Source: Aquificota bacterium (lineage in GTDB: Bacteria; Aquificota; Aquificia; Aquificales; Aquificaceae). From it: a stretch of 64,000 bases of DNA. The position numbers and the translations under genes were made by a program. Every line of letters starts with the position of its first letter. The first letter of the stretch is position 1. The stretch is from positions 806,001-870,000 of the forward strand of contig CP076324.1 of the NCBI GenBank assembly GCA_018771605.1. The letters run 5' to 3'. Positions 11,091 to 28,413 of the stretch are shown piece by piece. The notes under the pieces are model-generated. The model ran no database searches. It was not told where the DNA came from and saw only the letters and a list, made by a program, of their open reading frames with translations.

Positions 11091-12223
11091 GGGCAGTAAG
11101 GCTTTTCTCCTTTGCCCTCTATGACTCTGGAGAAACCATCTTAGGAGCCCTCCTCTTCTCCACCCTTTACCCCCTCTATATTACCCAGCACATAGACGTA
11201 AAAACCTATTCAACCCTCTATGGCCTTGCCTTTTTACTTTCCTTTTTTATTGCCCTAAGGCTTAGCAAAGTGGCAGATTACAGAGGCCTAAGGAAGACAT
11301 TCTTCAGCCTCTTTAGCCTTCTCATACCACTTGTTTGCTTTGCCCTCTACCTTTCCTTTCACAGTGTAGAATTGAACTTCCTCCTTTACCTTCTTTTGGC
11401 CATCATCCACCAGCAGGCCATGCTCTTTTATAACTCCTTGCTAAAAATCTTTGAGACAAAAGGGACGGCCTCCGGCCTTGGTGTGGCCTTGGGCTACGTT
11501 GGCTCTGCGGTGGCTTTAATACTTTTTGCACCAAGGCTTAGCCTTCCCACAGCCTTCATCTTCATAGCCCTTATCTTTTTCCTTTTGTCCCTTCCTTCCC
11601 TAATTTACCTCACAGAACCAAAAGAAAGACAGATCATAAGCATAAGGGAGGTTCTAAAGGACAAAAACTTTCTTTTAACCATGGCATCCATGCTTTTGCT
11701 TATGGAGCTTGCCAATACCATGATAGCCATGATGGGGGTCTATTTGAGGGAGGTCTATGGGCTAAAGGAGGGGGAGATATACAGGACCATAGGCCTTTCG
11801 GCCATTGGCGGTGTGCTTGGAGGCCTTCTGTGGGGAAGGCTTACAGATAGAATTTCGGCCAACAGGCTTTTCCCTTTTGGCTTTTTTCTTTGGAGTGCCT
11901 TTTTAATACTCCTTTTCTTCACGCCAAGGTCCATGATACTCCTACTTGGCCTCTTTGCAGGCCTTTCCCTCTCCCACCTTTGGACCACATCAAGAGTGCT
12001 TCTTATTGAAAAATTCACAAAGGGAGACATAGCCATAAGGTTTTCTTTCTATTCCCTTAGCGAGCGTATAGCCTCAAGCTTGGGCCTCTTAAGCTGGTCC
12101 CTATTACTCTATCTTACAGGCGGAAACTACAGGCTTTCTGCCCTTCTCATGCTTGTCTTTCCCATTCTGGGCTTTGTCATATACAAGCTTTCAAACAGGA
12201 GGCCTCAGATATATGGGTTCTAA
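11087..12223 (+). CDS. MFS permease, apparent ATA start codon
   Basis: A 378-residue multi-helix transporter of the major facilitator superfamily. The opening FALYDSGETILGALLFSTLYPLYIT resembles the first helix of UMF1/Atg22-type permeases (YDxxxxxF...PLY). No ATG, GTG, TTG or CTG exists in frame between the preceding stop (11069) and a GTG at 11270. Starting at that GTG would remove the first two helices. An ATA at 11087, overlapping the gltB TAA and preceded by GAGG at a good 8-9 nt spacing, is the best start. Substrate unknown. The 3' end converges on tsaB with a 33-nt overlap. Confidence 0.75.
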   Translation: MRAVRLFSFALYDSGETILGALLFSTLYPLYITQHIDVKTYSTLYGLAFLLSFFIALRLSKVADYRGLRKTFFSLFSLLIPLVCFALYLSFHSVELNFLLYLLLAIIHQQAMLFYNSLLKIFETKGTASGLGVALGYVGSAVALILFAPRLSLPTAFIFIALIFFLLSLPSLIYLTEPKERQIISIREVLKDKNFLLTMASMLLLMELANTMIAMMGVYLREVYGLKEGEIYRTIGLSAIGGVLGGLLWGRLTDRISANRLFPFGFFLWSAFLILLFFTPRSMILLLGLFAGLSLSHLWTTSRVLLIEKFTKGDIAIRFSFYSLSERIASSLGLLSWSLLLYLTGGNYRLSALLMLVFPILGFVIYKLSNRRPQIYGF

Positions 12224-12766
12224 AAGCACGGGGTTATCACCACCATAGCCTTCCATTAACCTTTTGTATGCCCAAAGGCCACCATAGAGGGAAAAGGGAA
12301 AAAACTCAAGAGAGATATCTCCCAGGCCTTGACCGCTTAGCCCTACCACCTTTATGCTTTCCGGCAAGCTTTTTAAAACCTCTATCTCCCCTATCTTCCC
12401 ATCTTTGCATCTTCTACAAAATATCTGGTTGCTAACTTTGAGTGCCACACAAAACTCCCCTTCCCTTTTTAGAAAGTGGCACATCATATAGAGGTTTTCA
12501 TAGCCCACTATGGGCTTTTTGGTAAGGTATGCCAAGGTCTTCATAAAGGTTATGCCTATCCTCAAGGAGGTCAAATAGCCCACCCCCAAAGAGACGGCGA
12601 AGGCATCCATATGCTCTGGCTCTACGCCAAGGCTTTTCAGCAAAGAAGGCAGATGTTCTAAGGTCTTTTTCCCATCATCCACATAGTGGTGCAAGACCAC
12701 CTTGCCATCCTCTATAAGGGTGAGGTTTATAAAAGAAAAGGAAGTGTCAAGGGATAGTAGCCTCAT
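12191..12766 (-). CDS. tsaB: tRNA t6A-modification accessory protein TsaB
   Basis: TsaB (YeaZ) is the inactive Kae1-like partner that scaffolds TsaD in N6-threonylcarbamoyladenosine synthesis at tRNA position 37. The protein has 191 residues and the ASKHA N-terminal half: MRLLSLDTSFSFINLTL, FAVSLGVGYLTSLRIGIT and the KTLAYLTKKPIVG segment, all family features. The C-terminal half is shorter than in Escherichia coli. A TAAAAT lies 10 nt before the ATG, and the promoter region is shared with the divergent methyltransferase gene (29-bp gap). Confidence 0.9.
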   Translation of the reverse strand: MRLLSLDTSFSFINLTLIEDGKVVLHHYVDDGKKTLEHLPSLLKSLGVEPEHMDAFAVSLGVGYLTSLRIGITFMKTLAYLTKKPIVGYENLYMMCHFLKREGEFCVALKVSNQIFCRRCKDGKIGEIEVLKSLPESIKVVGLSGQGLGDISLEFFPFSLYGGLWAYKRLMEGYGGDNPVLLEPIYLRPPV

Positions 12767-12795
12767 GGGTGTGTTTATTTTACAATAGATAGTGT

Positions 12796-14040
12796 ATGGA
12801 AGGAAGGCATAAGGCGAGATTGATCATAGGTGATAGTAGGAGTATGGCTGAAGTAAAGGATGGGGAAGTGGATTTAATCATAACATCTCCGCCTTACTGG
12901 CATTTAAAGGATTATGGAGTTAAAGGACAGATAGGATACGGTCAAACTCTCCATGAATACCTTACAGACCTATATATGGTATGGAAGGAGTGTTTTAGGG
13001 TGCTTCGGGAGGGCGGTAGGCTATGTATAAACATTGGAGATCAATTTTCAAGAGCTGTTGTATATGGAAGGTATAAGGTTATACCTATCCATGCCGAGAT
13101 AATAAGCCAGTGCGAAAGTATAGGCTTTGATTACCTTGGCTCTATAATATGGCAAAAAAAGACCACCATGAACACCACAGGCGGAGCTGTAGTTATGGGT
13201 TCCTTTCCTTATCCACCTAATGGCATAGTGGAAATAGACTATGAGTTTATTCTCATATTTAAAAAACCTGGTAAGAATAAGATTGTGCCAAAGGAAATAA
13301 AAGAGGCTTCAAAGCTTACAAAAGAGGAATGGAAAGAATATTTTTCTGGGCATTGGCGGTTTGCAGGGGCTAAGAAGATAGGCCACGAGGCTATGTTTCC
13401 AGAAGAGCTTCCAAAAAGGCTTATAAAAATGTTTTCCTTTGTAGGCGATACGGTGCTAGACCCCTTTCTTGGTAGTGGAACCACTATGAAGGTTGCAATG
13501 GAATTAAACAGAAAAGCCATAGGCTACGAGATAAACAAAGAATTTCTTAGTCTAATCTTGTCAAAAATAGGAGATGCTAATCAGATTGACATTATTGAAA
13601 GAGAAGTTGATATTGTAAATAAGCCACCCATAGAATATTTACCAAGAATAAAAGATGCTAAACCGCTTATAGAACCAAAGAGTTTTAACTTTAATGGAGA
13701 AAGGTTATATAAAGTTATTAGAATTTTAAATGAAGAAACTATTGAGACCAATACAGGTTTAAATATAAAGTTCCTGGGGGTTAAAGTCATAGATAGAGAA
13801 AGGACGCTGAAGTATTTAAAGGATTATATTCTTGGAAAGGAAATATTCATAAGAAATTACCAAGTGCTTGATGAACATACAGTAAAAGCTTATGTTTATT
13901 TAAAAAATAAAATCTTTGTAAATGCCTACCTTTTAAAATCCGGCTTAGCACTGCCAGACTTATCTGAAAACCACCTTTATAAGAAAAAATTTATCAAACT
14001 ATGGCAGGAGGTATCCAGTGGGGAAAGAGTGGATACTTAA
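12796..14040 (+). CDS. Beta-class N4-cytosine DNA methyltransferase with SNase-like C-terminal domain
   Basis: A 414-residue modification enzyme. TSPPYW at 30-35 (motif IV) precedes DPFLGSGTT at 222-230 (motif I), the beta-class order; SPPY with Trp is typical of N4-cytosine methylases. Residues about 300-405 look like a staphylococcal-nuclease fold: IKFLGVKVI, then LKYLKDYILGKEIFI, then KAYVYLKNKIFVNAYLLKSG. The catalytic Arg/Glu/Asp positions are not conserved, so this part may bind DNA or a partner. The 3' end overlaps an MjaI-like endonuclease gene by 23 nt. By analogy with that system the predicted target is CTAG (inference). TACAAT lies 9 nt before the ATG. Confidence 0.88.
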   Translation: MEGRHKARLIIGDSRSMAEVKDGEVDLIITSPPYWHLKDYGVKGQIGYGQTLHEYLTDLYMVWKECFRVLREGGRLCINIGDQFSRAVVYGRYKVIPIHAEIISQCESIGFDYLGSIIWQKKTTMNTTGGAVVMGSFPYPPNGIVEIDYEFILIFKKPGKNKIVPKEIKEASKLTKEEWKEYFSGHWRFAGAKKIGHEAMFPEELPKRLIKMFSFVGDTVLDPFLGSGTTMKVAMELNRKAIGYEINKEFLSLILSKIGDANQIDIIEREVDIVNKPPIEYLPRIKDAKPLIEPKSFNFNGERLYKVIRILNEETIETNTGLNIKFLGVKVIDRERTLKYLKDYILGKEIFIRNYQVLDEHTVKAYVYLKNKIFVNAYLLKSGLALPDLSENHLYKKKFIKLWQEVSSGERVDT

Positions 14041-21538: not shown

Positions 21539-22606
21539 CCTCTCAATGGCACCTTTCCCACCAAGGGCCTCCCTTAGCCTTTTAAAATCCTCCCTCATAG
21601 ACTCTCTTAGCTTTTCATCTTCCAAAAGGCTTTTTACCTTTATGCACAGCTCCTCCGGACTCCTTTGTATGAACTCTGGCACCACTTCCCTTTGTAGTAT
21701 GAGGTTTGTGAGGGCCACATAGTTTACCTTTACCAAAAGCCTTCCCCAAAGGTAGGTGATGGGATTGACCCTGTAGAAGACCACATGGGGAGAGCCAAGC
21801 ATGCTTGCCTCCAACTCTGCGGTCCCGCTGGCAAGCAATGTAAAATGTGCATAGGCCATAAGATTGTAGGAAGGGCTTTCCATATCCCTTGGAGTAAATA
21901 CCTTTACCGGAAAGCCTTTTAGTCCCTCTTGCACGTAGTCTTTAAAGCTTTCAAAGGTGGGGACAAGTAGGGGCATATTAGGCCTCAAGCATTCAAGCAC
22001 AGACCTAAGGTAGGGCACATGTCTTTTTATCTCACTCCACCTGCTTCCGGGAAGGAGGGCCATATACCTTTCTGAGCCCGCAAGCCTTTTTACTTCTTCT
22101 TCACCCATGGTTGGCTTTGCCAAATCTACCAAGGGATGGCCTACAAAATGAACCCTAAAGCCCTCCCTTGCATACCTTTTGTAAAACTCCACCTCAAAGG
22201 GGAGGATGACTATAAGATGGTCTACAAGCTCTGAGATAACTTTGGCCCTTCCCTCCTTCCATGCCCAAACCTGAGGGGATATAAAGTAGATGAGCTTTTT
22301 GACCTTTCCCTTTGCCCTCTTGAGAAGGGGCAAGTTAAAGGCTGGGGCATCGCACAGCACCAAGGCGTCCATCTCTGGCAGAAGCTCCTCTATCCTCTTC
22401 CAAAGCCTGTAGACATAGGGCACCTTTGGAAGGGCTTCTATGAGGCCCACTACCGATAGGTCCTCTATCCTTGCCACGCTTTTAAAGCCTATGGATTCAA
22501 GCCTCTCGTCCGTTATGCCATAAAGGTCTATGCCTTTTATATCTTTAAAGATGTTATATACGTAGTTGCTGGCAGACCTCTCACCCAAAGAGACAAAAAT
22601 TTTCAT
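21500..22606 (-). CDS. lpxB: Lipid-A-disaccharide synthase LpxB
   Basis: LpxB joins UDP-2,3-diacylglucosamine and lipid X to make the lipid A disaccharide at the inner membrane. The 368-residue protein contains MKIFVSLGERSASNYVYNIF (the family GExSG-like start, here GERSA), FISPQVWAWKEGRA, HFVGHPLVD and LLPGSRWSEIKRH. All are strong LpxB blocks. It shows the cell has a lipopolysaccharide outer membrane. It overlaps the upstream gene by 4 nt. Confidence 0.95.
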   Translation of the reverse strand: MKIFVSLGERSASNYVYNIFKDIKGIDLYGITDERLESIGFKSVARIEDLSVVGLIEALPKVPYVYRLWKRIEELLPEMDALVLCDAPAFNLPLLKRAKGKVKKLIYFISPQVWAWKEGRAKVISELVDHLIVILPFEVEFYKRYAREGFRVHFVGHPLVDLAKPTMGEEEVKRLAGSERYMALLPGSRWSEIKRHVPYLRSVLECLRPNMPLLVPTFESFKDYVQEGLKGFPVKVFTPRDMESPSYNLMAYAHFTLLASGTAELEASMLGSPHVVFYRVNPITYLWGRLLVKVNYVALTNLILQREVVPEFIQRSPEELCIKVKSLLEDEKLRESMREDFKRLREALGGKGAIERLRALFLQILYEF

Positions 22607-23019
22607 TGAGCCTTGGCAAATAAGCTAAAAAGCCCCTCTCCAACCCTTTCAACCCTTATGCTTACACCATCAAGCCTTAAAAACAGGGCATGCCCTATCT
22701 CCACCCTCCCAGAGCTTCTTATACTCACATACCTTTCCGCATAGCATTCTTCAAGGCTATTTCTGAAGGTAGTCTTAAGGTAGGCTCCATCGTGGTGCTC
22801 CATTATCTCGGTAAAGACCACCTCCATATAGTTGTTCTCCTCCACAGCCCTTTTCCAAGCCTCCTCAAGATCTGGGCTTTTTAGCTCAAGCTTTACACCA
22901 AACTCTAGGTCTTCTTCCTCCGCCTCTTCCAAAAGACCTGTTACCTTTGGGCTAAGGCTTTGGCATAGGTCTTTTAGTTTAGACAGGGCTTCTTGCCTGT
23001 AGCTTTCCTGTATGGGCAT
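22603..23019 (-). CDS. Hypothetical protein upstream of lpxB
   Basis: A 138-residue acidic protein I do not recognise. The N-terminal half is helical (MPIQESYRQEALSKLKDLCQ; LLEEAEEEDLEFGVKLEL). The C-terminal half looks like beta-strands (AERYVSIRSSGRVEIGHALF, VSIRVERVGEGLFSLF) and could be a PilZ-like or beta-barrel domain, but no motif confirms that. The ATG is chosen because TATAAT sits 6 nt before it; a TTG 21 nt upstream is possible. The stop overlaps the lpxB start (ATGA), so the two are co-transcribed. Confidence 0.65.
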   Translation of the reverse strand: MPIQESYRQEALSKLKDLCQSLSPKVTGLLEEAEEEDLEFGVKLELKSPDLEEAWKRAVEENNYMEVVFTEIMEHHDGAYLKTTFRNSLEECYAERYVSIRSSGRVEIGHALFLRLDGVSIRVERVGEGLFSLFAKAQ

Positions 23020-23025
23020 GAGAAT

Positions 23026-23031
23026 ATTATA
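23026..23031 (-). promoter_or_regulatory. -10 element of the lpxB operon
   Basis: TATAAT on the minus strand ends 6 nt before the ATG of the 138-residue gene. It lies at the very 3' end of the preceding coiled-coil gene. Confidence 0.6.
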
Positions 23032-23539
23032 ATTGGCCAAAGACCTTTAGTTCAAGCCTTTGAATCCTTGTGAGCACATCCTCAATAACTTCCTTCTGAG
23101 ATAGGGCCCTGTTTAGGTCCCCTCTTATGTGAGAAAGTTGAATATACAGTTCGTCAACCCTCCTGTTTAGCTCATCAATCCTCAAGGTATTTTGCATTAT
23201 CTCCTCTTTTAGCTCCGCCCTCATTTGGTCAATCCGCTGGTTGGTCTCGTCTATCCTTTTATTCACCTCGTCTATCCTTTTGTTGGTCTCATCAATTCTC
23301 TGGTTTGTTTCATCTATCCTTTGGTTGGTGTATTCAATATACCTTCTTATGTCTCTTAGCTCTGCCTCAAGACTGCTTTGCCTTTCCTCAAGGGCGGAAA
23401 GCCTTTTGTTCATAGACTCAATGGCAAGCCTAAAGCCAGCAAGCTCACCGCTAACGGTGGCCTTAAAGTCCCTAAACTCCTCCCTTAGCTCACCCACTAT
23501 AAGCTCCTTTAGCTTCTCCGCCAACCTTTCAATGTCCAT
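23027..23539 (-). CDS. Coiled-coil protein with exact heptad repeats
   Basis: A 170-residue, almost wholly alpha-helical coiled-coil protein. Residues 72-106 are five consecutive heptads of the form N-(Q/K)-R-I-D-(E/Q)-x, encoded by near-identical 21-nt units. Flanking segments keep heptad periodicity (LSALEERQSSLEAELRDI, LRIDELNRRVDELYIQL). There is no signal peptide or membrane helix. Similar proteins are common in Aquificaceae and often adjoin nuclease or DUF1640-like genes; function unknown. GGAGGGAAAG lies just before the ATG. Confidence 0.72.
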   Translation of the reverse strand: MDIERLAEKLKELIVGELREEFRDFKATVSGELAGFRLAIESMNKRLSALEERQSSLEAELRDIRRYIEYTNQRIDETNQRIDETNKRIDEVNKRIDETNQRIDQMRAELKEEIMQNTLRIDELNRRVDELYIQLSHIRGDLNRALSQKEVIEDVLTRIQRLELKVFGQL

Positions 23540-23575
23540 CTTTCCCTCCTTTTACAATTTATCCCGATCCTCTCC

Positions 23576-24610
23576 TTATTCCACTCTTAGCACCACCTTT
23601 CCAAAATGCCTTGACTTTTCCAAGTATGTGTGTGCCTCTTGGGCCTTCTCCAAAGGAAAGACTCTATCCACCACAGGCTTTAAAAGGCCCCTTTCAAATA
23701 GATCCGTTATCTTAAAGAGGTCTGCCCTTGGGCCCATATAAACGCCCAAAAGCTCAATCTCCCTCACAAAGATGTACCTTATGTCTACGCTTGCCTCAGA
23801 GCCAGTGGTAGTTCCAAAAAAGACAAACCTTCCACCACGTCTCAAACACTCCACGCTCTTCCAAAAGGTCTGGCTTCCCACATGGTCCATCACTATATCC
23901 ACACCCTCCTTAAAAAGCCCCCTCACCCTTTGGACCACATCCTCCTTGTAGTGGTCTATTACCACATCTGCGCCCAGCTCCTTGCACCTTTTTGCCTTCT
24001 CTTCCGACCCTGCAGTGGCTATCACAAAGGCTCCAAAAAGCTTGGCAATCTGGATGCCAGCCACGCCCACGCCGGAGGAGCCTCCCCATATGAGAACTCT
24101 GTGGTAGGGCCTGATATTTGCCTTATTGACAAGGGCATTCCAAACGGTTAAAAAGGTCAAAGGATAGGAACTTGCCTCCTCAAAGCTAAGGTTGGATGGC
24201 TTTTTTATCACATTCCTTGCTGGCACCTTTACATACTCGGCATAACCACCCTTTGACCTAAGGCCCAGAATATCGTAGTGTCTGCAGTGGTTGTCATGAC
24301 CGCTCTGACACTCATAGCAAACACCGCAAGAGAGGCCCGGCGCCACCACCACCTCATCTCCCTCTTTTATATCCTCCTTCACCAAGCTTCCCACCCTTTC
24401 CACCACACCGCTTATGTCCGCACCCAATATGTGAGGAAGCTCTGGCCTTACCGCAAGGGCCCCCATCCTAACCCATATGTCAAGGTGGTTTAGGGCCACA
24501 GCCTTTACCCTTATGAGGACCTCATCCTCCCTTATCTCTGGCTTTGGAAAGTCTTCCACAAACCTTAGCTTTTCCACACCACCAAAGCCTTCAAGCACAA
24601 CCGCACGCAT
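23576..24610 (-). CDS. Zinc-type medium-chain dehydrogenase/reductase
   Basis: A 344-residue oxidoreductase of the MDR superfamily (alcohol dehydrogenase/quinone reductase). The GHxE-like block is changed (HILGADISGVVERVG). The structural zinc site is present: CGVCYECQSGHDNHC (about 97-111). The NAD(P) Rossmann motif is WGGSSGVGVAGIQIAK (about 176-191). The C-terminus, YLEKSRHFGKVVLRVE, is typical. Substrate unknown. The start codon is only 20 bp from the divergent gspE ATG, with TATAAT 8 nt before it, so the message is probably leaderless. Confidence 0.88.
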   Translation of the reverse strand: MRAVVLEGFGGVEKLRFVEDFPKPEIREDEVLIRVKAVALNHLDIWVRMGALAVRPELPHILGADISGVVERVGSLVKEDIKEGDEVVVAPGLSCGVCYECQSGHDNHCRHYDILGLRSKGGYAEYVKVPARNVIKKPSNLSFEEASSYPLTFLTVWNALVNKANIRPYHRVLIWGGSSGVGVAGIQIAKLFGAFVIATAGSEEKAKRCKELGADVVIDHYKEDVVQRVRGLFKEGVDIVMDHVGSQTFWKSVECLRRGGRFVFFGTTTGSEASVDIRYIFVREIELLGVYMGPRADLFKITDLFERGLLKPVVDRVFPLEKAQEAHTYLEKSRHFGKVVLRVE

Positions 24611-24630
24611 GAGGTAGTATTATATTAGAA
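24611..24630. promoter_or_regulatory. 20-bp divergent promoter region (oxidoreductase / gspE)
   Basis: The whole intergenic gap is 20 bp. Minus-strand TATAAT (24619-24624) serves the oxidoreductase and plus-strand TAGTAT/TATATT (24615-24626) serves gspE; the two overlap. Any -35 elements must lie inside the opposite coding sequence. Neither gene has space for an SD. Confidence 0.65.
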
Positions 24631-26046
24631 ATGGACATCCTTAGGACCTACCGCCTTGTGCCTTTGGAGGAGGGAGAAGGCTATATAAAGCTTTTGGTTC
24701 CAAAGGGTTTTGACCCCCTTGTGCTGGAGGAGGTGCGCTTTTCTTTGGGAAAAGAAGTTATCCCCGTTTATGTGTCCGAAGAGGAGTTTTCTCAAAGGCT
24801 TCAAGAGGTTTTGGCCCAAGAGGAACCCCTTGTGGAGGTGGAAGGTGCGGAGGAATCTGAAGTAAGGGATATACTCTACGAGGAGGAGACAAGCCCAGCG
24901 GTAAGCTTTGTAAACCAGACCCTTATAAAGGCCATAAACCTTGGAGCATCAGATATACATATAGAACCTTATGAAGGCCAATCCTTTGTAAGGCTCAGGC
25001 TTGACGGTATACTACACAACTATACCCAAATTCCTCTCTCCCTTCATGAGCAGGTGGTGTCTCGCATAAAGGTTTTGGCAAACTTAAACGTGGCAGAGAA
25101 GAGAATTCCACAGGATGGGAAGATAGCGGTAAAGGTAGGCAAAAGGCACTTGGATATAAGGGTTTCGGTGGTACCCACCGTCTTTGGTGAGAGGGTGGTG
25201 TTAAGGCTTTTGGAAAAGGGTGGGAAGATACTAAGGTTGGAGGACCTTGGCCTCTGGGAGGAGGACCTTTTGAAGCTAAAAAGGCTTTCTCAAAAGCCCT
25301 ACGGCATTGTGCTTGCCACAGGGCCCACAGGCTCGGGGAAAAGCACCACCCTTTACGCCATCATAATGGAAATAAAAAGCCCAAAGAAGAACATAATCAC
25401 CATAGAGGACCCACCAGAATACCAGATAGAGGGTGTGAGCCAGATACAGGTGAACCCAAAGGTGGGCCTCACCTTTGCCACAGGCCTAAGGGCCATACTA
25501 AGGCAGGATCCAGATGTGATAATGGTGGGGGAGATTAGAGATTCGGAGACGGCAGAGATAGCAGTCCAGTCAGCTCTTACTGGCCACTTGGTCCTCTCCA
25601 CCCTTCATACCAACGATGCACCCTCCGCCATCACAAGGCTCTTTGACCTTGGCATAGAGCCCTTTTTGATAGCCAGCGCCTTGGAGGGTGTAATAGCCCA
25701 AAGGCTGGTAAGGAAGATATGCCCACACTGTAAGGAAGAGTATAGGCCTTCAAAGGAGGAGCTAAAGGAGCTTGGCCTATCTGGTGACCATACCTTCTAC
25801 AGGGGAAGGGGCTGTGAGCAGTGTATGGGGACAGGCTACAGGGGAAGGACGGGCATATTTGAGGTGCTGGAGGTGGATGAGGAGATAAAAAAGCTAATAG
25901 TGAAAACCCAGTCTGCCACAGACATAAGGAACTTTGCAAGGGCAAGGGGCTTCAAAAGCATGCTGGAGGATGGCATAAGAAAAGTCCTCTCTGGCATAAC
26001 AACGCCGGAAGAAGTCCTAAGGGCTGTAAAAGCGGAGGAAGGATGA
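24631..26046 (+). CDS. gspE: Type II secretion ATPase GspE
   Basis: GspE powers pseudopilus assembly from the cytoplasm. The 471-residue protein has an N1E/N2E region (to about 150) and Walker A GPTGSGKST at 231-239. IITIEDPPEYQIEGVSQIQV is the Asp box, DPDVIMVGEIRDSETAE Walker B, and SALTGHLVLSTLHTND the His box. The zinc site Cys364, Cys367, Cys395 and Cys398 (CPHC, CEQC) is that of GspE/PilB. It heads the second secretion block E-L-M-K. PilB is the main alternative, but the GspL, M and K neighbours decide. Confidence 0.94.
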   Translation: MDILRTYRLVPLEEGEGYIKLLVPKGFDPLVLEEVRFSLGKEVIPVYVSEEEFSQRLQEVLAQEEPLVEVEGAEESEVRDILYEEETSPAVSFVNQTLIKAINLGASDIHIEPYEGQSFVRLRLDGILHNYTQIPLSLHEQVVSRIKVLANLNVAEKRIPQDGKIAVKVGKRHLDIRVSVVPTVFGERVVLRLLEKGGKILRLEDLGLWEEDLLKLKRLSQKPYGIVLATGPTGSGKSTTLYAIIMEIKSPKKNIITIEDPPEYQIEGVSQIQVNPKVGLTFATGLRAILRQDPDVIMVGEIRDSETAEIAVQSALTGHLVLSTLHTNDAPSAITRLFDLGIEPFLIASALEGVIAQRLVRKICPHCKEEYRPSKEELKELGLSGDHTFYRGRGCEQCMGTGYRGRTGIFEVLEVDEEIKKLIVKTQSATDIRNFARARGFKSMLEDGIRKVLSGITTPEEVLRAVKAEEG

Positions 26047-27179
26047 TAAAAAAGGTGGTGAGCGCCAAAGAGGGTGAGAAAAGGCTATCTGTGGAGTACA
26101 ACCCTATTACAAAAAGCTGGCAGGTCTCCAAAAGGTCTGGAAGACTCATATGCGTGGTGCCTTCGCACAAGAGCCTCATAAAGGTGGAAGGAAAGAGAAG
26201 GATAGAAGACCTTAGGGCCTATGTGAAGGAGAGGTTTCCAGAGAGCAGATATGATATTAAGCTTTTGGAGGATAGGGCTTACATAGCCTTGTGCAGAGAT
26301 TGCTCTGAGTGTGAGAATATAGAGCTGGAGCCCTTTGCGCTGGCAAGGCTCTTCAGTCTTTATGAAAAGGAGGGCTTTGTCATAGACTTTGGAAAAAGCA
26401 AGACGGTCTTTGTGGAGGTGGAAGGGGGGCTTTTGAGGTCCCTTAGGGTGGTTATGAGGGGAGGGGACTACCTTACGCAAAGGGTAATGGAAAAGAGGAA
26501 CATAGGCTTTGAAGAGGCGGAGAAGCTAAAGAGGTCCGAGGGCTTAAATCTGGAGGAAGTAAGGGAAGGCCTTTTGGAAATTTTGGAGCTTTCTGGCTAC
26601 TCTTTTGAAGAAAAAACTCTTCTCCTTACCGGCGGTGGCTCAAGGCTAAGGGGCCTGAGGGAGGCCTTTAAAAGGATTATAGACCTTAGAGCTTGTGAGC
26701 CCGAGTATGCGGTGTGTCTTGGTGCATGCCTGAGGGAAGTATTAAAAAACCCTTATCCAGACTTTACAAGGAAGGAACTTAGCAAACAATATATAAAAAG
26801 GATAGCTTATACCGGTGCCAGCATGGGGCTTCTTTTCTTTCTTAGCCTCCTTGCTATGGATAGAATTTACTCGGCAGAAAAACTAAGAGAACTTCAGAGG
26901 TCTGAGTTTAAAAGGCTCTTTCCAAAGGAGCCCATAGTGTCCCTTTATGATCAAGTGAGGGCAAAGGTCTCTACAGGAGAAGAATACAGGCTCACAAAGG
27001 CATTGCTAAAAGTCCAAGATAACTTAAGGCCCGGCATGAGGATATACACCTTTGAGTATGCAGAAGGAAGGTTCATCATAAAAGGTGAGGCGGAAAGGAG
27101 CCTTCTTGAGGGCATAAGGCCCTATGCTATAAAGGAGACCACAACGGGCAAGGTGGAGTTTGAGATAAGATGGCCATGA
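26043..27179 (+). CDS. gspL: Type II secretion platform protein GspL-like
   Basis: A 378-residue protein with a cytoplasmic actin-like (ASKHA) domain, one membrane helix at about 258-277 (TGASMGLLFFLSLLAMD) and a small periplasmic ferredoxin-like domain. LLLTGGGSRLRGLREAF (about 197-213) is the nucleotide-fold glycine motif shared by PilM/GspL. Four cysteines near residues 83-90 (ALCRDCSECENIEL) are unusual. The gene overlaps gspE by 4 nt and the gspM-like gene by 10 nt. GspL recruits GspE to the membrane. Confidence 0.82.
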   Translation: MIKKVVSAKEGEKRLSVEYNPITKSWQVSKRSGRLICVVPSHKSLIKVEGKRRIEDLRAYVKERFPESRYDIKLLEDRAYIALCRDCSECENIELEPFALARLFSLYEKEGFVIDFGKSKTVFVEVEGGLLRSLRVVMRGGDYLTQRVMEKRNIGFEEAEKLKRSEGLNLEEVREGLLEILELSGYSFEEKTLLLTGGGSRLRGLREAFKRIIDLRACEPEYAVCLGACLREVLKNPYPDFTRKELSKQYIKRIAYTGASMGLLFFLSLLAMDRIYSAEKLRELQRSEFKRLFPKEPIVSLYDQVRAKVSTGEEYRLTKALLKVQDNLRPGMRIYTFEYAEGRFIIKGEAERSLLEGIRPYAIKETTTGKVEFEIRWP

Positions 27180-27568
27180 TGGTAAAGAGGATAAACCTTA
27201 TAATGCTTTTAATCTCTGTGCTTTTGCTTGCCCTTCTCCTTGATAGGTATTACAGGCTAAGAGCCTCTTACTACCTTGAGTATTTGAGGCACAAGGAGGT
27301 TATGCTACTCCTTAAGAACTATCAGGCTCGCCAAAAGGCTACCATAGATGAAAACTTTGTAAGACAAAAGCTATCGGAGGTAGGTGCGGACTTCCTTTCC
27401 TTTAAACAAACAGATGTAGGTTATGAGGTAAAGGCAAGGAACTTAAAAGGGGAAGGAATTCCAAGGCTTGTTTATGCCCTTGAAAATGCAGGAGTGGAGA
27501 TAATCAAGTTTAAGGCTGTGGATAACACGGGGCAGGGCATATACGAGTTAGAGATGGTCCTAAGATGA
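27170..27568 (+). CDS. gspM: Type II secretion protein GspM-like
   Basis: A 132-residue bitopic protein with a membrane helix at about 9-26 (INLIMLLISVLLLALLL), a short helix and a periplasmic ferredoxin-like fold (about 60-132), as in GspM. Three possible ATGs lie within 10 nt at the gspL stop; ATGATG makes the exact start uncertain by three residues. It sits between gspL and gspK as expected. Sequence similarity in the family is weak, so context carries the call. Confidence 0.72.
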   Translation: MAMMVKRINLIMLLISVLLLALLLDRYYRLRASYYLEYLRHKEVMLLLKNYQARQKATIDENFVRQKLSEVGADFLSFKQTDVGYEVKARNLKGEGIPRLVYALENAGVEIIKFKAVDNTGQGIYELEMVLR

Positions 27569-28413
27569 CCATAGTATTGGCCCTTTTTTTGTTTCTTAGC
27601 GCAAGCCTTGTGGTCATGGACCTATACACCACGGTAAAAAGCACACAGATGAGCCTTCAGCAGGTCTATGCACGTATGCAGGCCCTCTATGTATTCAAGT
27701 CTGCCCTTCCCTTAGCCATAGCCATCATAAGGTCCGATGATGCTTCCATAGACCATCTGGGAGAAAGGTGGGCAACGCCTATTAGCTTTAAGACGGAGAG
27801 GGGGGAGCTAAGCATAAGCATATACGATGAGGACAGGTTTATAAACCTAAACACGGCTGGCGACCATCCAGAGCTTTTTAAACATCTCTTTTCAACCCTT
27901 AGGATAGATGAAGAATATCTAAACAGACTGCTCATATGGATAGGCAAAAGGGATAGCTCCTTTGAAAACCCCTACCCCATAAAGAGGGCACCCCTTAGCT
28001 CAAAGGAGGAGCTTTTGTATGTGGGCCTTAGGCCAGAGGACCTTCAGGGAAAGACCATAGGCAAGGACTTTTACCCAGGCCTTTGGAGCCTTACCACCAC
28101 CTTCTCCTCTGGAAAGGTCAATATAAACACTGCACCCTTTTATGTATTACTTTCCCTTGACAGGCACATGGACGAAGCCCTTGCCAATAGGATCATGGAA
28201 AGAAGGTCTAAAGAACCCTTCAAGAAGCCAGAAGATCTTGTGCTTGTGGAGGGCTTTACCTTTGACATGCTATACAGGATGAAAAACTACATAGACACAA
28301 AAAGCAGATTCTTCCACATAGTTATGGACCTAAAAAGCGGAGGATATAGCTTTAGCTTCTCCGCCATATACGACAGGCAGGAGGGAAAAATTGTTTATAA
28401 AAAGGTATACTGA
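27565..28413 (+). CDS. gspK: Type II secretion minor pseudopilin GspK-like
   Basis: A 282-residue protein with an N-terminal hydrophobic helix (MTIVLALFLFLSASLVVMDL). The GspK features are FINLNTAGDHPELF, GKVNINTAPFYVLLSL and a helix-hairpin-helix-like FKKPEDLVLVEGFTFDML. It lacks the usual charged leader and prepilin-peptidase site: the start overlaps the gspM stop, and no longer N-terminus is available. It may therefore stay membrane-inserted rather than be processed. GspK sits at the pseudopilus tip. Confidence 0.82.
   Translation: MTIVLALFLFLSASLVVMDLYTTVKSTQMSLQQVYARMQALYVFKSALPLAIAIIRSDDASIDHLGERWATPISFKTERGELSISIYDEDRFINLNTAGDHPELFKHLFSTLRIDEEYLNRLLIWIGKRDSSFENPYPIKRAPLSSKEELLYVGLRPEDLQGKTIGKDFYPGLWSLTTTFSSGKVNINTAPFYVLLSLDRHMDEALANRIMERRSKEPFKKPEDLVLVEGFTFDMLYRMKNYIDTKSRFFHIVMDLKSGGYSFSFSAIYDRQEGKIVYKKVY

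Follow-up and report, generated by a model that had tools for sequence, protein, structure and literature searches.

A putative minimal, shared and leaderless promoter in the 20-bp gap between divergent oxidoreductase and gspE genes of an Aquificaceae bacterium

The stretch analysed here, referred to as the window, comprises 64,000 nucleotides of an Aquificota bacterium of the family Aquificaceae (GCA_018771605.1, contig CP076324.1, positions 806,001 to 870,000), whose genome is assembled as one 1.72-Mb contig. Within it a zinc-type oxidoreductase gene and a gspE-like gene are transcribed away from each other across a gap of only 20 bp, and we consider it probable that this gap is a minimal, shared bidirectional promoter consisting of a -10 element only and serving two leaderless genes, formed when gspE settled beside an already existing oxidoreductase promoter. 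The geometry of the sequence, the absence of a Shine-Dalgarno core, the recurrence of such gaps in the family and the conservation of some of the pairs are observed directly; the real start sites and the two-way activity of the gap are inferred. The elements are as follows:

24611..24630, no strand: proposed shared leaderless bidirectional promoter, the 20-bp gap (direct reading of the sequence and class statistics)
24619..24624, minus strand (read 24624 to 24619): oxidoreductase -10 box, TATAAT, ending 8 nt upstream of the ATG
24618..24623, plus strand: gspE -10 box, TATTAT, a 5/6 match ending 7 nt upstream of the ATG

The two ATGs (minus 24610, plus 24631) lie where a preliminary description of this DNA had placed them, and both match the starts found in relatives. 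The boxes are offset by one base, have five bases in common (24619-24623) and together read TATTATA (24618-24624). The overlap of -10 elements and the minus-strand TATAAT in the preliminary description are thus real; the plus-strand boxes that it proposed, TAGTAT (24615-24620) and TATATT (24621-24626), lie 10 and 4 nt from the ATG, and TATTAT is better placed than either. No Shine-Dalgarno sequence stands at a usable distance before gspE, the GAGG at 24611-24614 ending 16 nt before the ATG. If transcription starts seven bases past each -10 box, the predicted starts are 24612 and 24630, 18 bp apart, and positions 24619 and 24623 would each serve as -7T on one strand and -11A on the other. The thymine at -18, helpful but not required in bidirectional promoters, is present on the minus strand (24630).

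This arrangement closely recalls the bidirectional promoters with a symmetric -10 element described by Warman, Grainger and colleagues (PMC12825309, PMC10268837). In Escherichia coli, divergent starts at such promoters are most often 18 bp apart, spacings of 10 and 23 bp also being common (PMC12825309), and in the published 18-bp arrangement the -7T of each strand coincides with the -11A of the other (PMC10268837). The gap shares with them the opposite-strand use of one -10 element, the reciprocal -7/-11 positions and the predicted start spacing (18 bp here, 23 bp in a second gap of the window described below). It differs in that both mRNAs are predicted to be leaderless, which brings the distance from gene to gene down to about 15-25 bp.

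Short divergent gaps are, as a class, far beyond chance. Five genomes of the family were sampled, with 22-29% of each covered and 266 divergent pairs in all; the sample of the bacterium's own genome spans 464 kb with 428 genes called. Gaps of 15-25 bp separate 40 of the 266 pairs and gaps of 1-14 bp a single one, the former being found in 7/59 pairs of the own genome, 9/49 of a second genome of the genus (G006) and 7/45, 6/60 and 11/53 of three others of the family (G022, G018 and G014, respectively). Convergent and same-direction pairs have no such spacing floor in four of the genomes. Among the 120 genes of the own genome whose upstream neighbour lies on the opposite strand, -10 boxes matching in at least five of six positions peak 6-8 nt before the start: 10, 7 and 17 genes have one at 6, 7 and 8 nt, respectively, whereas most other distances are represented by about two genes. 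Boxes at leaderless distance occur on both strands in 34 of the 40 short gaps (3.9 ± 1.9 in 1000 shuffles, maximum 11) and overlap by at least two bases in 31 (3.5 ± 1.8, maximum 10). Since boxes 6-10 nt from starts 20 bp apart are forced to overlap by geometry, the real finding is that both boxes are present. A Shine-Dalgarno core at -15 to -4 precedes none of the 80 starts flanking 15-25 bp gaps, 25 of 148 where the gap is 26-60 bp wide and 117 of 278 where it is wider. In a genome of the same order and another family (G036, GC 0.313), which has no peak of boxes at leaderless distance, 0 of 36 divergent pairs are spaced by 15-25 bp. The description of such pairs as leaderless holds as a prediction from sequence.

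Three of the six other short pairs in the own-genome sample were compared with 13 congeners. For the pair encoding a GCV_T-domain and an LptF/LptG protein the 16-bp length of the gap is kept in all 12 relatives that align through it (13 had some match), and the core columns are 0.92-1.0 identical in these 12 compared with 0.67 and 0.66 in the flanks; the gap (L151:15452-15469) contains a nearly invariant palindrome, TTAAAATTTTAA. The core between a class-V aminotransferase and an EamA gene is kept in the eight relatives aligning through (11 matched), the gap being 1-2 bases shorter in three. Memo-like and radical-SAM genes diverge over an 18-bp gap (L142:12951-12970, own genome) that aligns through in five relatives (six matched), where its eight-base core, TAAATTTA, is invariant. 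Memo and radical-SAM families often occur together.

How would such a promoter work? We propose that the housekeeping polymerase reads the one near-palindromic -10 element in either orientation, without a recognisable -35 element, and that transcripts would start on each ATG or no more than about two bases from it; with such starts both mRNAs would be leaderless and the entire intergenic region would be promoter. The expectation that each -35 element must lie inside the opposite gene was rejected: no -35-like match is found there, and the leaderless genes of the family show none. The best TTGACA matches 16-18 bp upstream in 225 of these genes average 2.60 of 6 positions as against 2.54 in shuffles, and in 76 genes with gaps above 60 bp, aligned on the -10 box, the information content nowhere exceeds 0.11 bits between 5 and 36 bases upstream of the box. 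A consensus promoter scan of 22000-28000 returned seven promoter-like sites compared with 6.1 in shuffles; it contains no plus-strand two-hexamer match between 22000 and the gspE start, and no minus-strand site upstream of the oxidoreductase nearer than 1.6 kb. The gap does not show the -35 element 16-18 bp upstream that a two-hexamer sigma-70 promoter would have.

The same searches bear on the possibility that only the oxidoreductase uses the box and that gspE is transcribed, with a leader, from a promoter inside the oxidoreductase gene. That TATAAT is the oxidoreductase's own box in relatives and that the best box for gspE matches in only five of six positions would fit such an arrangement, but it is rather unlikely given the empty plus-strand scan, the want of a usable Shine-Dalgarno sequence before gspE and the -10-like boxes that precede gspE in relatives as well, TAAAAT lying 8 nt before its ATG in G004 and G021.

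The history of the pair can be followed from the loci of the oxidoreductase; of the 37 genomes that gave a match, 30 yielded such a locus. In the genus, 9 of the 12 loci read (window included) have TATAAT 7-10 nt upstream of the oxidoreductase ATG, and a divergent neighbour starts 17-22 bp away in 9 of 20 loci of the family. The identity of this neighbour varies (partner families were assigned by testing one genome per group):

this genome: gspE
G003, G004, G006, G013: histidinol dehydrogenase
G015, G024: Der-type GTPase
G010: methyltransferase-fold protein
G022: 130-codon frame at 18 bp, counted from its ATG

Two neighbours are not counted among the nine: that of G018, 28 bp away, where the oxidoreductase has a Shine-Dalgarno sequence, and that of G014, a frame of 87 codons 21 bp away which stands against a same-direction arrangement. 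gspE has other partners elsewhere: in G018 a QueC-family gene starts 17 bp from it, and in G021 a PDZ-domain gene does so at 18 bp. The oxidoreductase/gspE junction aligns through in none of the 13 congeners; the oxidoreductase match stops at or before the box (query 385-414) in 12 of them, seven have a separate gspE match and one has neither. The two genes thus appear to have become neighbours recently. In the genome closest by protein identity (G002, 89%) the oxidoreductase promoter reads TATAATACTATTTC-ATG compared with TATAATACTACCTC-ATG in the window, and the symmetric box is therefore probably older than the arrival of gspE. The -10 element would originally have been the oxidoreductase's; a rearrangement, or a deletion after one, would have placed gspE opposite, and the symmetry of the box would have given it a promoter. 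The breakpoint that brought gspE here may have been precise, or it may have been looser, with a deletion afterwards.

Does sharing one box make the genes a switch? The preliminary description held that polymerase could hardly occupy both boxes at once, and this agrees with the sequence overlap and with the steric exclusion of two polymerases reported for bidirectional promoters (PMC12825309); exclusive occupancy of the overlapping boxes is likely. It went on to propose mutually exclusive expression, and here the evidence turns against it. A regulatory switch selected for competition over the shared box could point to the five-base overlap, which excludes simultaneous binding, and to the repression of one side that strong activation of the other can cause in E. 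coli; however, the five E. coli bidirectional promoters examined show no competition at basal activity, which is too low for it (PMC12825309), the junction is absent from the 13 relatives and the products have no evident link. We regard such a switch as very unlikely, and functional coupling of this pair was rejected on its lack of conservation in the genus. Under the shared-promoter reading the genes would exclude each other only while polymerase occupies the box and would probably be expressed independently at ordinary activity. Because the pair is not conserved and its products are not evidently linked, independent low-to-moderate expression is the better guess. Overall, the interpretation first offered for this gap is partly supported.

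Several observations weigh against a shared leaderless promoter. On the plus strand the -18T reported to favour such promoters is missing (24612 is an A), and a minus-strand start exactly seven bases after the -10 box would fall at 24612 on a T, which initiates poorly; the ATG begins with its A two bases further on. The palindrome excess in the short gaps is small (4.31 compared with 3.91 of 6 pairs), and over its whole length the Memo/radical-SAM gap is conserved no better than the flank on its left (0.78 and 0.79). Gene starts other than those of the window pair were called with a simple codon-pair program, and starts were checked against relatives only for that pair and the aligned junctions. 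Finally, 2.7% of shuffles of the 24611-24630 gap contain both boxes at 5/6 or better and 10% at 4/6, so that this gap by itself is only mildly unusual. The latter figure is what a chance AT-rich spacer with coincidental boxes and wrong start calls would have in its favour, a view that is scarcely credible against the excess of the class (31 of 40 against 3.5), its 15-bp floor, the conserved gap cores and the lack of such pairs in the more AT-rich G036.

The flanking genes are:

23576..24610, minus strand: zinc-type alcohol dehydrogenase/quinone oxidoreductase-like gene, 344 aa (Pfam ADH_N and ADH_zinc_N)
24631..26046, plus strand: gspE/pilB-like type II secretion ATPase gene, 471 aa (Pfam T2SSE and MshEN)

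The best NCBIfam match of the oxidoreductase is quinone_pig3, under its cut-off, and that of gspE is type_II_gspE, slightly below its own (612.9 bits, cut-off 630.25); the best named relative of gspE belongs to a Hydrogenobaculum metagenome-assembled genome (56% identity). The gspE-like match in G018 (L126) contains a single in-frame TAA, which may mark the end of the match or a disrupted copy, and those in G038 and G040 have similar single stops.

The window contains a second gap of the kind, a 29-bp version noted earlier between tsaB and a methyltransferase gene, and it does have boxes on both strands:

12767..12795, no strand: second proposed shared promoter, with minus-strand TAAAAT (12777-12782) and plus-strand TACAAT (12781-12786)
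12191..12766, minus strand: tsaB-like gene (NCBIfam T6A_YeaZ, 68.8 bits, cut-off 69.3)
12796..14040, plus strand: DNA methyltransferase gene (Pfam N6_N4_Mtase)

The boxes have two bases in common, and the predicted starts, 12770 and 12793, would be 23 bp apart and fit the 23-bp class. The tsaB/methyltransferase junction was common to no match, 11 of 14 genomes (own included) having given one.

Twelve pairs of the family survey have gaps of zero or less, and most of the eight inspected resemble start-call errors. A gap of -2, with both calls meeting on one CATG, gives eight pairs the look of overlapping divergent starts; we treated these as start-calling errors because in most of them one gene has an alternative start 15-27 nt inward that would give an ordinary short gap. 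Most of these calls (L150:15190, L170:6469, L178:7533 and five more) probably conceal further short shared-promoter gaps. Outside the order, 50 kb of Thermus thermophilus pTT27 contain one 26-bp divergent gap, between cobT and a histidine phosphatase gene (L291:42511-42538), a hint only, from too small a sample, that the class reaches another leaderless-rich lineage. In 50 kb of E. coli the smallest gap between divergent coding genes is 94 bp; this sample, too, is too small for more than a hint, and both samples were inspected by eye.

A survey of leaderless genes found them in two of five Aquificae genomes, where they make up 20.7-32.4% of genes, and describes bacterial leaderless genes whose TA-like signals lie some 10-12 bp ahead of the start (PMC3160421). 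The genes described here resemble those of the survey in the TAtaaT right before the ATG and the lack of a Shine-Dalgarno sequence; the survey differs in treating single genes, the word 'divergent' being absent from its main text. lysG and lysE of Mycobacterium tuberculosis (PMC5648196) are likewise divergent, with overlapping -10 and -35 motifs and one leaderless transcript, but are separated by 108 bp with a regulator site between them. Judged by their listings, none of the open-access papers retrieved on leaderless genes with bidirectional or overlapping divergent promoters describes such a class, most subscription papers lying outside the search.

The spacing of these pairs suggests a lower physical limit of about 15 bp for divergent genes, which would be the room taken up by two discriminators plus the common -10 element. 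The gaps offer natural promoters of the smallest size in which to study the choice of orientation by the polymerase, leaderless initiation without a -35 element and the gain of promoters after rearrangement. For the family as a whole we suggest, tentatively and as a possibility short of an even chance, that the shared leaderless -10 element may be a stable module with exchangeable partners: a leaderless gene would bring along its symmetric box as a full promoter for both directions, rearrangement and deletion would bring new genes to its far side at the 15-25 bp limit, partners would be swapped, gene order would evolve by promoter capture and newly joined genes would become coupled through the orientation of the polymerase.
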